This document shows, piece by piece, positions 31,101 to 53,307 of a DNA stretch of 64,000 bases. Numbering within the stretch: position 1 is the stretch's first letter; every line of letters begins with the position of its first letter. Below the pieces are notes generated by a model. The model did no database searches, was not told where the DNA came from, and saw nothing but the letters and a program-made list of their open reading frames with translations. The stretch is from Macrocystis pyrifera (Eukaryota > Sar > Phaeophyceae > Laminariales > Laminariaceae). The stretch covers positions 8,211,199 to 8,275,198 of the forward strand of contig JASSKH010000003.1 of NCBI GenBank assembly GCA_031763025.1, in the 5' to 3' direction. Position numbers and translations under genes: made by a program.

Positions 31101-34100
31101 CGTTTCAGAGGTGAGCGAGATAGTTCTTGACCCCGACAATGTTTTTTTTTTTTTTTTTTATCTTCATGTGCATCATATAATATATTATTTCAACCTATTA
31201 AGTGACGGTGAACGGTTTGTACTTCGTATCGCGTTGATCCACTCATCGTGTATCATGCGCGCTTGTTCACCAGGGCGACTGCCGTATGCCCGACCAGTGG
31301 ATGCGCTGCTCTGCACGAATGGACCCCCCTTCCCGTCCCTGCCCCACCCTCATCACTCTGTAAGCCCCCCACCCAACGCTACCAACACTTGTGCGACCGA
31401 CCGCGTTCTCGATCAACACCCCCTGGCGAGGACTCGCCTGCATTGGGAGTCTACTCTGCGCCTTTTTTTTTCCCGTTATGAACTACAAGCCAGATTCCCC
31501 CCAAAACCCGACGTGCTCCGTCCCGGCATTGTAGGGATGCGAGGGTCTATGGTCATACGACTACAGCCATGCATGATAATGAGTCCCCCCCCCCCCCCCG
31601 CCCCCCCCTGTCGCTCCGTCTCGAAAGGGATGCGTGTTCAATGGTCAAATGACTACGAGGCAAGCAATAAATGAGTACGCCCCCTTCCCCCCCCCCCCCC
31701 CCCCGGCTATATTATGTACCTGGTATATGTATAGGTTGGGTTGGCGTCGATTGGCGACGACGCTGTAAAACACGCCTCTCCCTGCGTGAGCTATTAATAG
31801 ACAGCCAGGGTACCTTCTTCTTTTTTTTGGCGGTTTACCGCGGCTGGCGGTCAACTTAGATCATTTTTGTGCTGGGAGAGCCTTTACTCCGCACAAGGGG
31901 GATAATCGTATCACGTAGTGTGTATATGGTGAGACACCCACGAGGCAGTTACATAGTAAACTCATTGCTGTCTCTGGCACTGGCCACACCTGAAATTAAA
32001 CCGATTCATTGATGCTGTCATCCATATGCAAGAAAATCCGCCTCTAGCGGTTCTTAGTAGGATGCAGCTCACCCTTCATGCGACTCGCCCAACACCTCAC
32101 GGCGCTTCGGCTTGGTGCAAGCAAACAATGTCTGCTGGTCGGTGAAAACCCGACGCGCTCCGTCCCCGCGCTGTAGGGATGCGAGGGTCTATGGTCATCC
32201 GACTACGGCCATGCATGATAATGAGTACCCCCCCCCCCCCCCCCCCCCCCCACGCCTCCTCTTATCCCCCGATTCCATCTTCTCCCTCCCCTCCCCCCTC
32301 CCCTCCCCTCCCCCCCCGGGCAACGACACGCATTATCCCCGAAAAAGGTGCTACGAGCGACGACCCCTTCCTCCAAGCTCCTGTTCCTCTGCTCCCCCGG
32401 CAACCCGACGGGGAAGAGCGTGCCGGCGTCCGTTGTGCGAGATATCGTCAAGGGCGGTTTCGACGGCATCGTTGTCGTGGACGAGGCGTACGTGGACTTT
32501 TCGGGAAAGGAGAGCGCGTGCTCGCTCATCGACGAGCTGGACAGGGTCGTCGTTCTGCAGACGCTTTCTAAGGCCTTCGGGATGGCGGCCATTCGGTGCG
32601 TGTGTCTATGTGTCTATGTGTCTATGTGTCTATGTGTCTATGTGTCTATGTGTCTATGTGTCTATGTGTCTGTGTGTATGTATGTATGTATGTATGTATG
32701 TATGTATGTATGTATGTATGTATGTATGTATGTATGTATGTGTTTTTGTAGGCATATTATGTACTGATATTTTGGTGCGCCTAGGTGTTATGTGGCCGGC
32801 TGGTTTTAGTACCTGGCTGTTACGGGGGTCTATAGTTAACAGGACCCATGGCATACATAAAAACCTATATATTTACCTTGTTTTACTAACAATATTTGGT
32901 CCTGTTAACTATGGACCCCCGTAATAGTTTGGGAAGCGGAGTGGGGGAGGTGAGGGGGGAGGCCGGTGGAGGGCGTGTAAAGGGATATCCGCGCTTATCA
33001 TATCCTGAATGTCACTGGCGATTTCTACCGCTTCCTAACACGTTGAGTTATTTTTCGCCCCTTGCCTTTCACTGCCGGTGACACTTTTTTTTTTTTGTGC
33101 GTTACGCCCGGCAACATGGTGTCACCTTTGTAGCTATTATGGGGGGCCATAGTAAATAGGACCCACGGTGCACACAAAAACCTATATATTTACCTATTTT
33201 TACGGACAATATTTGGTCCTATTTGCTATGGTCCCCCGTAATAGTGCCCCCACTAATGTAAATTTGCTTGCAAACAAACGGCGAGCCTGTCCATTGGGCA
33301 GTGACAAACGAGTCTTTTGATGAAAGGTACAGCGGGACGATTCTTACCGCCTGCAAACCAACAGTCTTTTTTCCTGAAGCAAGCCATGCAAAAGAACGTT
33401 TGCACCCAGGTGACCAAGTAACTGTGCAGTTGAAATTGATTTTCCTGGTTGCTACGATCTGACCGAGTATTTTATCGAGTGCCTTGGAAAACGCTATTCT
33501 GGGGGGGCCATAGTAAATAGGACCAAATATTGTTAGTAAAAATAAGCAAATATATAGGATTTTGTGTCTACCGTAGGCCCTATTAACTATGGTCCCCAGT
33601 AATAGCACACCTTCGAACTTAGCAGTGAATCACGCATTTGTTCACATTCAGAAAAATACACGGATCTACCGCTTGCTCATAATAAACGGTTGGATTTCAC
33701 ATCCGAGACGCCACGATGAGCACGGCAGCACACATGTTTCACCTAAAGTCGTCGTTAATCATAGGTGTTCGCCGTGTATTTATAGTGCCCGGAAAAGAGT
33801 TTGAACAAGCACATAACCGTTGGCTGTATATGAGGGGGGTGTAGGACTCCGGGTGTTTTTTTTCATGGCGGCCATTCGATGTGTATGTCTCGATGCAACC
33901 AGCTGGCTGGCTGGTTGGCTGGCTGGCTGGCTGCTTTGGGGAGCGGAGGGGGGGATGTGGGGTGTAGGTGGGGGATGGGGGGGGGGGGCGTACTCATTTG
34001 TTGCTTGCCTTAGTCATTTGGGCATTGACCACGCATCCCTTTCGAGACGGAGCACCGTTCCTACTCCTAATAGAGACACCTCCAACAATTGGGCGCTCAT

Positions 34101-51212: not shown

Positions 51213-53307
51213 CCTCGGCAACCTAGCCCGATCGCCACCGCCGCCGCCACCGCCGTCAGCGTTCAAGCTGTGCGCGTATTCCTTGGCTGCCTTCTGCATC
51301 TTCTTCGTCTTCTCCGCGAAGTGGGCGCGGTGGTCATCCGCCTCCGCCCGCGCCGAGAGCGAGTGCTGGGACGCGTGGGCCCGGAGCTGCTCCTGCGCCG
51401 CTTTGTGATCCATGTGTACGTCGGCAGCGCGCTTGCGGTGTTTCTTCAGTGCGAGGAAGATGGAGGAGGGGGAGGGGAGGAGGGGTAGGGGGCGAAGGGA
51501 AGAGGCGGTGGCGCGGGGGGGAAGCGGGGCAGGGGGGGGGGGTTGTGATGAGTGCTGTGAAATATATGTGACTGGCAACAATTTTAGTACTCGCGTTTTT
51601 GACCCCTGGCATAGACTATGCTTATGAAAGTGCGGCGTTATCTACATTTACGTCACGTATCACACGAGTACCGAGAAGAGCGGAGAGGACGCACGGGTAG
51701 AGGCTGTTTCGCACGGGTAGGCGGTGTCGCACAGGGGCTGCGTAAGAAAAGCACGAACGGGAGCGATCGAATTGAGACTTTCCCCGCACAGGGACCGTCG
51801 AGTTCGCACAACCGCAGCAGTGGTGCGTTTCCTCCCCGACCCTCCCCCCCCCCCCAACCACCTTCCACGACTCCAGGAAACACTCGCCTCAATCAAGCGT
51901 GAGGTTGCGTGCTACCGTGGCTCCGGGGACATTGCTACATTGCTGATCTGCAACATGCGAAACAAAAAAAATGTGGTTTGTCGTATTGGCCCCCCGTAGC
52001 AGTGGTTTTACACACTCTGTTCCGAAATATAAGCATTATTTACATAAAAAACATTACTATACAAACCGTTCCTTATATCTCGGTACAGAGTGGTATCGCG
52101 GTATGCAGCTGTCTGCATCATCGGGGCTCTGCTATGCATGTACCTGGTACTGCTCTAGTGCATGGGACCGTGGCGGTGCACACCACGAAACATTCGGCGT
52201 TTTCATTCAATCGAGAAAGAACGCACACATGGGTGTGTGTGTGTGTGCTCATTATCATGCTTGGCCGTGTAGACGTTTGACCATAGACTCTCTCATCCCT
52301 ACAAATGCCGGGACGGACCACGTCGGGTTTTCACCGACCAGGTAGACATCGCTTGCACCAAGCGCGAAGCGCCCTGGGGCGTTGGGCGAGCCGCGTGAAG
52401 GGTGAGCTGCATCCTACTAAGAACCGCTTCGGAGGCGGCCTTGTACATGGATGGATGGCAGCGTCAATGGGGGGGGGGGGGGGGGGGGGGGGGGGGGGGG
52501 GGGGGGGGGGGGGGGGGGGGGGGGGGGGGGGGGGGGGGGGGGGGGGGGGGGGGGGGGGGGGGGGGGGGGGGGGGGGGTGCGCATAAAAAAACGACAGCGA
52601 AATGATCTGTTCGATTTTCGCACAACCGGTGATGTCACACGGATCGGAGAGGATGCACAGGGCACAGGGGTGCGCGCTATTCCTTACGGGGGACCATAGT
52701 AAATAGGACGTACGATACACAACAAAACCTATATATTTACCTGTTTTTACTAACAATACTTGGTCTTTTACTACCATAATGGTCCCCCGTAATAGAAAAA
52801 GGCAAGACGACATCGAAATGACGTTGAAAAACGATCGCACAGCAGCTTTTGCGTTGCGATCTCTTAACCTGGTACCTGGTAGATATTTACAACCTATTCA
52901 TATGATATCAGTATTCAATACAGTAAATGATAAGTTCATTAAAAAGTTGTCACTGTCACTGTGCGAAATAGAACACAAATACTACTACCGTACTGTAATA
53001 GCGCCAGTTTCCTCCTGGGTTTGATCTGCACCCTCTACACAGGTCCAGCACATTATATCATAACCGCAGATGTACAGCAGCAGTACAGCAGATCAAGATC
53101 TGTCTGTCCGATGCGTGAACTACTACTACTACTACTACTACTACTACTGCTGCTGCTGCTGCTGCTGTGGTAACATGTTACAAAAATCAAGGTAAAATCA
53201 CCTCCGCGAACTCTTGGGCGACGCGGTGCATCTCGCTTGGGTCGGGCATCTCCCTTTCCGAGTGGGGTTCCCTGGCCTCCTTCTCGAACCGGTCCCTGCG
53301 CATTTTC
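51213..53307 (-). CDS. unrecognised charged coiled-coil protein (two linked exons)
   Basis: Exon 53202-53307 (acceptor TTTGCTGCAG, donor GTGATT) encodes KMRRDRFEKEAREPHSEREM and EMHRVAQEFAE. Exon 51213-51443 (acceptor CACTGAAG behind a CT-rich tract, donor AGG then GTGAGT) encodes KHRKRAADVHMDHKAAQEQL, ARAEADDHRAHFAEKTKKMQ and KAAKEYAHSLN, then a Gly-run. Phases match (1 base carried in, 0 out), giving about 112 residues. The sequence is strongly helical and charged. The 5' start was not found to the right, and the end is either an immediate TGA after the donor or further exons to the left. No family is recognised. Confidence 0.5.
52013..52096. mobile_element. Stowaway-like MITE-D with intact ends
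   Basis: CACTCTGTTCCGAAATATAAG at the left (20 shown by position) and CTTATATCTCGGTACAGAGTG at the right form near-perfect inverted repeats. The interior is AT-rich with no coding. It lies in the intron between the two coiled-coil exons. Confidence 0.72.
52240..52577 (-). mobile_element. SINE copy next to the longest homopolymer (109 G)
   Basis: The SINE 3' end reversed (GCTCATTATCATGCTTGGCC) is preceded by GTGTGTGTGTG, so this copy has a CA-rich tail. The element stops at GGCAGCGTCAATG and is followed by G at every position from 52469 to 52577. Confidence 0.82.
52684..52795. mobile_element. palindromic MITE-A copy
   Basis: TTACGGGGGACCATAGTAAA at the left and ATGGTCCCCCGTAATAG at the right. 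The core has CAAAACCTATATATTTACC and CTAACAATACTTGGTC. Confidence 0.85.
53127..53168. repeat. CTA and CTG trinucleotide repeat
   Basis: Eight CTA units followed by six CTG units, in the intron downstream of coiled-coil exon 53202-53307 on its coding strand. Confidence 0.88.

Follow-up and report, generated by a model that had tools for sequence, protein, structure and literature searches.

The kelp Macrocystis pyrifera carries a long interspersed nuclear element (LINE) with endonuclease and reverse transcriptase (RT) domains and a short partner resembling a short interspersed nuclear element (SINE), and the two have a common 3' domain of about 75 nt. Both probably insert by target-primed reverse transcription (TPRT), preferably into C-tracts, with a primer ending in GGG-3'OH pairing with the C's of the RNA. 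We studied them in a 64,000-nt stretch of contig JASSKH010000003.1 (positions 8,211,199 to 8,275,198), hereafter the window. The observations are the two enzyme domains, the common 3' end, C-runs of fixed orientation at both ends of the copies, truncation at C-tracts, a few C-containing target site duplications (TSDs) and insertions into a known C-tract. In most known elements of the LINE and SINE type the repeats are A-rich or else short and mixed. An earlier, sequence-only reading of the window had described a LINE/SINE pair ending in poly-C instead of poly-A. It is partly supported here: a LINE with endonuclease and RT is present in many places, a short partner has its 3' end, and C-runs replace A-runs in both.

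Copies in the window were defined as blastn matches to one LINE piece and one SINE piece, which gave 12 LINE and 20 SINE-like copies (Table 1). Their 5' ends are ragged. At the 3' side none of the 20 SINE matches stops more than 9 nt short of the reference end, and 11 of the 12 LINE matches come to within 7 nt of it. At least six C's lie within 30 nt past the tip at 9 of 11 LINE and 16 of 20 SINE 3' ends. The longest C-run within 45 nt of a SINE tip measures 3 to 36 (median 10, n = 20), and the SINEs at 42701–42873, 46610–46702 and 52244–52468 have a short tail or no C-run. The word ATGAGTAC occurs 11 times in the window (shuffles: mean 1.59, maximum 5) and GAGTACNCCCC, with at most one mismatch, 23 times (mean 4.14, maximum 10). 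Searches of the kelp assembly (537,376,219 bases in 223 contigs) found GAGTACNCCCCCC 25,430 times versus 139 for a reversed control pattern. Exact LINE tips, AGGCAAGCAACAAATGAGTAC, number 4131 genome-wide and exact SINE tips, GGCCATGCATGATAATGAGTAC, 2712, counts that are biased toward well-preserved copies; NCCCC follows 3343 (80.9%) of the former and 1954 (72.1%) of the latter, so that the C's are neither absent from most copies nor chance flanks. Among the 100 matches listed for each family, the base between tip and C's is G in most LINEs, and A or C in most SINEs. The C tail of LINE and SINE is genuine and genome-wide.

The earlier description of these tips was too uniform. It gave every LINE tip one word followed by C-rich sequence, and every SINE tip one of two words followed by 7 to more than 20 C's. 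The C enrichment far exceeds chance in both families, but AATGAGTACG is present in only 5 of the 12 LINE copies and AATGAGTAC or ATCGAGTAC in 11 of the 20 SINE copies, and the SINE runs span the wider range given above. That reading also overlooked the C-runs at 5' ends and a SINE subfamily, type B, in which the terminal word is doubled (GAGTACATCTCTCCTATCGAGTACAC, e.g., at 35465–35629), and further copies exist outside the span of 31505–52577 to which it referred, at 5–4018 and 18428–26940.

The likeness of the two families goes well beyond the terminal word to which it had been confined. The LINE and SINE consensus ends are identical in 56 of 74 columns, i.e., over the last ~75 nt. With the terminal 9 nt removed the alignment still scores 25.5, a value reached by none of 5000 dinucleotide shuffles (best 10.5). 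The SINE 3' end is homologous to the LINE 3' end, as in LINE/SINE pairs of the stringent type. The shared domain ends in GAGTAC, after which the C's begin. In two LINE copies (L029, L030) the reading frame stops at a TGA within AAATGAGTAC; the LINE is thus almost devoid of a 3' untranslated region, with an overlap between its coding end and the shared domain.

Folding predictions make a common RNA structure at these 3' ends possible. Both 75-nt consensus ends are predicted to fold alike, GTGCTC pairing with the terminal GAGTAC and enclosing two hairpins. LINE and SINE differ in 3 of 46 paired versus 15 of 28 unpaired columns, a contrast for which the fold came from one of the two compared sequences, typed as consensus. 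A structure given by hand lets 91.2% of cells pair versus 31–43% when slid, and one LINE copy folds moderately better than its shuffles (9 of 200 as good). Other results speak against such a structure: the closing helix is no longer predicted once ~34 nt of upstream sequence are added, for two SINE copies the fold is no improvement on shuffled sequence (47 and 59 of 200 as good), and RNAalifold returned five other pairs, not the shared fold. Moreover, the fold alignment of 44 of 55 tips, from which 11 SINE tips (the doubled ones and others by choice) were left out, holds no compensatory (double) changes for the shared fold and does not exceed letter shuffles.

Protein searches identified both enzymatic parts of the LINE. 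The RT-side piece of the window drew 3830 candidates and the endonuclease fragment 734, and in either search 150 were scored, all of which matched. The near-complete copy L046 has a frame of 1137 amino acids with Exo_endo_phos at 194–346 (E = 9.6e-11) and RVT_1 at 763–1011 (E = 1.6e-29), although this frame closes early in the sequence as assembled. Its RT matches chains of R2 and L1 ORF2p. Endonuclease and RT domains in a single open reading frame identify the element as a non-long-terminal-repeat retrotransposon of the apurinic/apyrimidinic endonuclease (APE) type. L030 holds a frame of 870 amino acids with RVT_1 that extends to the tip. As is common for LINEs, 5' truncation prevails: 12 of 12 LINE and 18 of 21 SINE matches in the window (one of them false) start past reference position 40. 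Upstream of the near-complete LINE, positions 1–560 of L046 consist of tandem units of ~60 nt, perhaps a repeated promoter. Membership of the kelp LINE in the RTE-X clade is a lead from the relevant passages of PMC12477816 and PMC4421812.

The partner is short (~520–555 nt), non-autonomous and abundant. No tRNA or other known RNA was found as its head: in 31500–32300 nothing attained the gathering score of a known RNA family, and a scan of the window yielded no tRNA genes. In two reference copies the best match to the B-box of RNA polymerase III promoters has 2 mismatches among 9 fixed bases and the best A-box 1 mismatch. We call the partner SINE-like and claim no narrow-sense SINE status for it. 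Relatives of the pair had no match among viral contigs and none that was confirmed among genome contigs, near records possibly having been left out of both sets.

The orientation of the C-runs was assessed in 264 kb, made up of the window and 20 fetched stretches of 10 kb, with a 3' end scored as bearing six C's (C6) or six G's (G6) if the run lay within 30 nt. Five SINE matches at T-runs, one of them in the window (37598–37628), proved false, which reduced the SINE 5' ends from 38 to 33 and left the 3' counts as they were. C6 follows 46 of 56 3' ends (17 of 22 LINE, 29 of 34 SINE) and precedes 38 of 61 5' ends (14 of 28 LINE, 24 of 33 SINE), versus none and one, respectively, for G6; the background rate of C6 in a 35-base window is 2.2%. 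The fetched stretches contribute 8 of 11 LINE and 13 of 14 SINE 3' ends with C6, and the window the fractions given above. At 5' ends the window has 10 of 12 LINE and 14 of 20 SINE, and the fetched stretches 4 of 16 and 10 of 13. Insertion into a simple repeat in fixed orientation is thus a preference, not absolute. Across the genome, C8 with GACTACGGCCATGC at most 14 nt downstream, i.e., a SINE cut to its last ~28–42 nt, matched 456 times on the reverse strand, and the G8 version 0 and 2 times on the two strands; the forward-strand C8 count of 2156 is inflated by overlapping starts, and the reverse count was used since its listed rows (100 in all) are one per site.

Runs of at least 10 in the 264 kb comprise 107 of C/G versus 67 of A/T. 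Among the 107, 61 have no detected element in their vicinity, 18 stand behind a 3' end, 14 between two elements, 13 only before one and 1 on the opposite strand. A GAGTAC-like word lies near just 5 of the 62 that are not beside a same-strand copy, so a few very short copies were missed. C-tracts hence exist alone and are entered. Elements also form head-to-tail arrays (e.g., 26104–26940 and 31503–32228); of the 38 C-flanked 5' ends, 20 follow another detected element at a distance of no more than 130 nt. Very long C/G runs measure 91 (43941–44031), 109 (52469–52577) and 121 (L026, 9515); no element was detected beside those of 91 and 121. At 37133–37191, C46 is followed by GTGACATGAGTACCTCC, which resembles a SINE with only the final dozen bases left, missed by blastn.

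Landing sites can be read directly in a miniature inverted-repeat transposable element (MITE) of ~110 bp with ends CTATTACGGGGG and CCCCCGTAATAG. Its end ...CTATGGTCCCCCGTAATAG contains C5 in 12 of 15 intact ends at fetched loci and 7, 8 and 11 C's in the others. A search for GAGTAC, 1–28 bases and CCCGTAATAG gave 103 matches genome-wide; of the 100 listed, 13 (in 12 places) read as element tails entering GTAATAG, the rest being mostly MITE interior. The C-run adjoining GTAATAG is 3–24 long in the 12 places and exceeds 6 in 8 of them. Six of 12 fetched loci gave no clear reading, and L041 is a probable SINE in a MITE end. In five loci the SINE sits within the C-run of the known MITE end: L032, L033, L038 and L039 show the MITE up to its C-run, then the SINE, then C's and GTAATAG, and in L037 the MITE end plus GGCT is duplicated around the SINE. 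L037 also has an additional C10 that separates the SINE from the 5' TSD copy (GTAATAGGCT) and that simple TPRT into a C-tract leaves unexplained; a TSD lying outside the 5' C-run was discarded as a rule, being found in 1 of 87 copies (L037). Clean TSDs flank the LINE L029 (C9 TCGTAACT before, C18 TCGTAACT after), the L002 copy (CTGACATGC) and the window copies at 46610, 35465 and 18428. A diverged empty site, L024 compared with the SINE in L005 and L006, has C-rich CCTCGCCCC; the loci are only roughly alike, and the comparison is weak.

From these observations we propose target-primed reverse transcription with C-tracts as preferred sites. The G-strand of a C-tract would be nicked, leaving a primer that ends in GGG-3'OH, and this primer would pair with C's immediately beneath the domain common to the two 3' ends. 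The LINE enzyme, which would recognize that domain and so mobilize the SINE as well, would copy upward and often stop early, giving 5' truncation. Most insertions would leave a C-tract behind as a possible next landing site, and in this way head-to-tail arrays would form. Some results count against such insertion. Only 4 of 16 LINE 5' ends in the random stretches have a C-run, some of these ends being broken fragments, and the population test for TSDs is weak: with k = 5, those anchored in C-runs number 9 among 75 (mean of 200 shuffles 4.2, maximum 9), and with k = 6, 7 among 75 (mean 2.7, maximum 7). A less constrained search had 6 among 41 (mean of 20 shuffles 1.3, maximum 3), but 2 of the 6 are element tip words rather than TSDs. 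So weak a signal is expected, though this is no proof, if many duplications consist of C only. Arrays could also come from one event by template jumping, the RT leaving one RNA and continuing at the poly-C end of another, as the 20 C-flanked 5' ends close behind another element would suggest. This is distinctly improbable: the other 18 are not so placed, 13 long C-runs are followed by an element and have none detected on their other side, and the split MITE ends require no jump. That the tails are signal-free products of ordinary decay, C-microsatellites expanding near GC-rich repeats, would fit the excess of C/G over A/T runs but is hardly credible in view of strand polarity (G-runs at 0 of 56 3' ends and 1 of 61 5' ends; 456 matches with C8 versus 2 with G8).

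Within the preferred scheme of C-tract insertion, the origin of the C's themselves can be weighed at eleven junctions, chosen for readability and with approximate C lengths, as these are homopolymers in a PacBio assembly. At 4 of the 11 the tail has more C's than the upstream run (upstream/tail: L033 10/12, L038 6/15, L039 15/23, L029 9/18), and at 7 it does not (L041 8/8, L032 11/5, L037 10/6, L002 10/4, then GC, and in the window 46610 5/3, 35465 14/4, 18428 5/5). As insertion is into pre-existing C-tracts, much of a C-run can be derived from the target. It may well be, at a little less than an even chance, that the RNA has few C's at most and that long runs are the sum of target tract, duplication and replication slippage. 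C-runs at 5' ends, the 62 long runs without a same-strand copy beside them, only 5 with a GAGTAC-like word near, the short tails at 46610 and 42701 and the seven junctions without a longer tail agree with this; the clearly longer tails of L038, L029 and L039 do not, unless slippage favored the tail side.

The sequence-only reading had inferred instead that the RT starts on a poly-C RNA tail, a signal that the SINE copies; on this view LINE and SINE RNAs end in several to many C's, templated or added, with the RNA mainly setting tail length. We regard this as possible, though less likely than not. The C-runs start at a fixed place past GAGTAC, as a rule after a single A or G; at the MITE-end loci read as clear or probable, six in all, tails are 5, 6, 8, 12, 15 and 23 long versus mostly C5 in intact ends (12 of 15); and the run after L029 is twice that before it, C18 versus C9. 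However, just the four junctions have the longer tail, some copies with C43 or C109 upstream are nearly or wholly without a C tail, the upstream runs of 6–15 at the split MITE ends were maybe long before insertion, and homopolymer drift could lengthen runs. Such drift happens, as the duplicate loci L005 and L006 differ in their 5' C-runs (16 vs. 12). Since target C's fail at four junctions unless there was drift, and a long RNA tail fails at seven, our claim is limited to C-tract targeting and C's at the RNA end. A bolder version seems rather unlikely: it would have a possibly untemplated poly-C RNA tail as the RT start signal and an endonuclease specialized for G-tracts, altogether a complete C/G counterpart of the poly-A/T system of L1 that evolved separately in brown algae and seeds its own targets.

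LINE/SINE pairs that share a 3' end and LINEs that enter simple repeats are of a known kind; what is new is C in place of A. In a brown alga, Ectocarpus, the most abundant family described in PMC12477816 is RTEX-N1_Ec32, ~600 nt, non-autonomous, of unknown 5' origin and conserved at its 3' end with the autonomous RTE-X LINEs RTEX-1 and RTEX-2_Ec32, a likeness to the kelp pair that we draw from a description mentioning neither tail nor target; Saccharina has RTEX-1 (PMC4421812). UnaL2 and UnaSINE1 of the eel share a 3' tail of stem-loop and short repeat, both needed for transposition, but the repeat is TGTAA, not C, and the account in the pertinent section of PMC5135761 describes no homopolymer target. 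The same section has SART1 of the silkworm starting RT at target-like bases just below a 3' stem-loop, in its case with a telomeric repeat instead of C, and mentions no SINE partner there. Togen of fish inserts into a microsatellite, (TG)n; unlike the kelp LINE, which is APE-like and uses mono-C, it is NeSL-related, a clade listed in the part of PMC4640811 consulted as encoding a restriction-like endonuclease. Human L1 and Alu likewise match a homopolymer tail to a homopolymer-rich target, TT/AAAA (PMC13295347, in the portion used; role of poly-A in PMC5135761), but their tail is poly-A and they have no common 3' end sequence, in contrast to C and a common ~75 nt in kelp. A mono-C tail or C-tract target of a SINE or LINE was not found among the results listed in searches of the open-access literature.

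Many of the copies in the window seem to be intronic within one gene, as four peptide pieces at 26923–40736 match aminotransferase class I/II; these putative exons, HisC-like by our reading, have element copies between them. A tandem array occupies 10279–11199; its unit of 32 nt has many TTAGGG-like words.

Table 1. Element copies in the window (Cn, run of n C's; truncated, 5'-truncated where so stated)
Feature	Position	Strand	Remarks
SINE	204..651	-	type B, 5'-truncated
SINE	18428..18699	-	truncated; TSD CCCCCATGTCA
SINE	25931..26109	+	truncated
SINE	26310..26697	+	begins 3 nt past C29 run at 26278
SINE	26729..26863	+	type B, truncated; behind preceding C tail
SINE	31503..31584	+	truncated; C tail
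SINE	31705..32228	+	fullest type A copy of window; C24 at end
SINE	34751..35231	-	type A; C36 past tip
SINE	35465..35629	+	type B, truncated; TSD CCCCATCGAAGC
SINE	36180..36700	-	type B, near full length; C19 upstream
SINE	39039..39278	+	truncated; C43 directly upstream
SINE	39477..40031	-	type B, doubled tip, near full length
SINE	40046..40369	-	truncated
SINE	41241..41452	-	truncated
SINE	42701..42873	-	truncated; C43 directly upstream, no C-run directly past tip
SINE	44774..44946	-	truncated
SINE	45221..45382	-	truncated
SINE	46610..46702	-	truncated; TSD CCCATGCTGGT
SINE fragment	50995..51039	+	
SINE	52244..52468	-	truncated; C109 directly upstream
LINE 3' end	5..183	-	
LINE 3' end	3908..4018	-	
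LINE 3' end	26147..26272	+	then C29
LINE 3' tip	26883..26940	+	behind SINE C tail
LINE 3' tip	31613..31678	+	between two SINEs
LINE 3' part	33990..34711	-	truncated at C36 of neighbouring SINE tail
LINE 3' tip	35724..35772	+	
LINE 3' tip	36726..36773	-	
LINE 3' tip	41072..41139	-	
LINE 3' tip	47080..47166	+	
LINE 3' tip, decayed	47205..47245	+	
LINE 3' part, RT side to tip	49672..50939	+	C26 just upstream; open frame used 49678–50127
MITE	1544..1654		
MITE	32818..32928		
MITE	33135..33246		
MITE	33496..33606		
MITE	38786..38896		
MITE	52682..52792		

The reason for short repeats at LINE and SINE ends was called unsettled in 2026, in the part of PMC13295347 cited. In kelp the same single base stands in tail and target and thousands of exact tips are available, so that swapping bases can serve as a test of whether tail and primer pair. 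The pair is also a possible cause of the preponderance of C/G over A/T runs in the 264 kb (107 vs. 67), and LINE and partner would together be generating their own landing sites.

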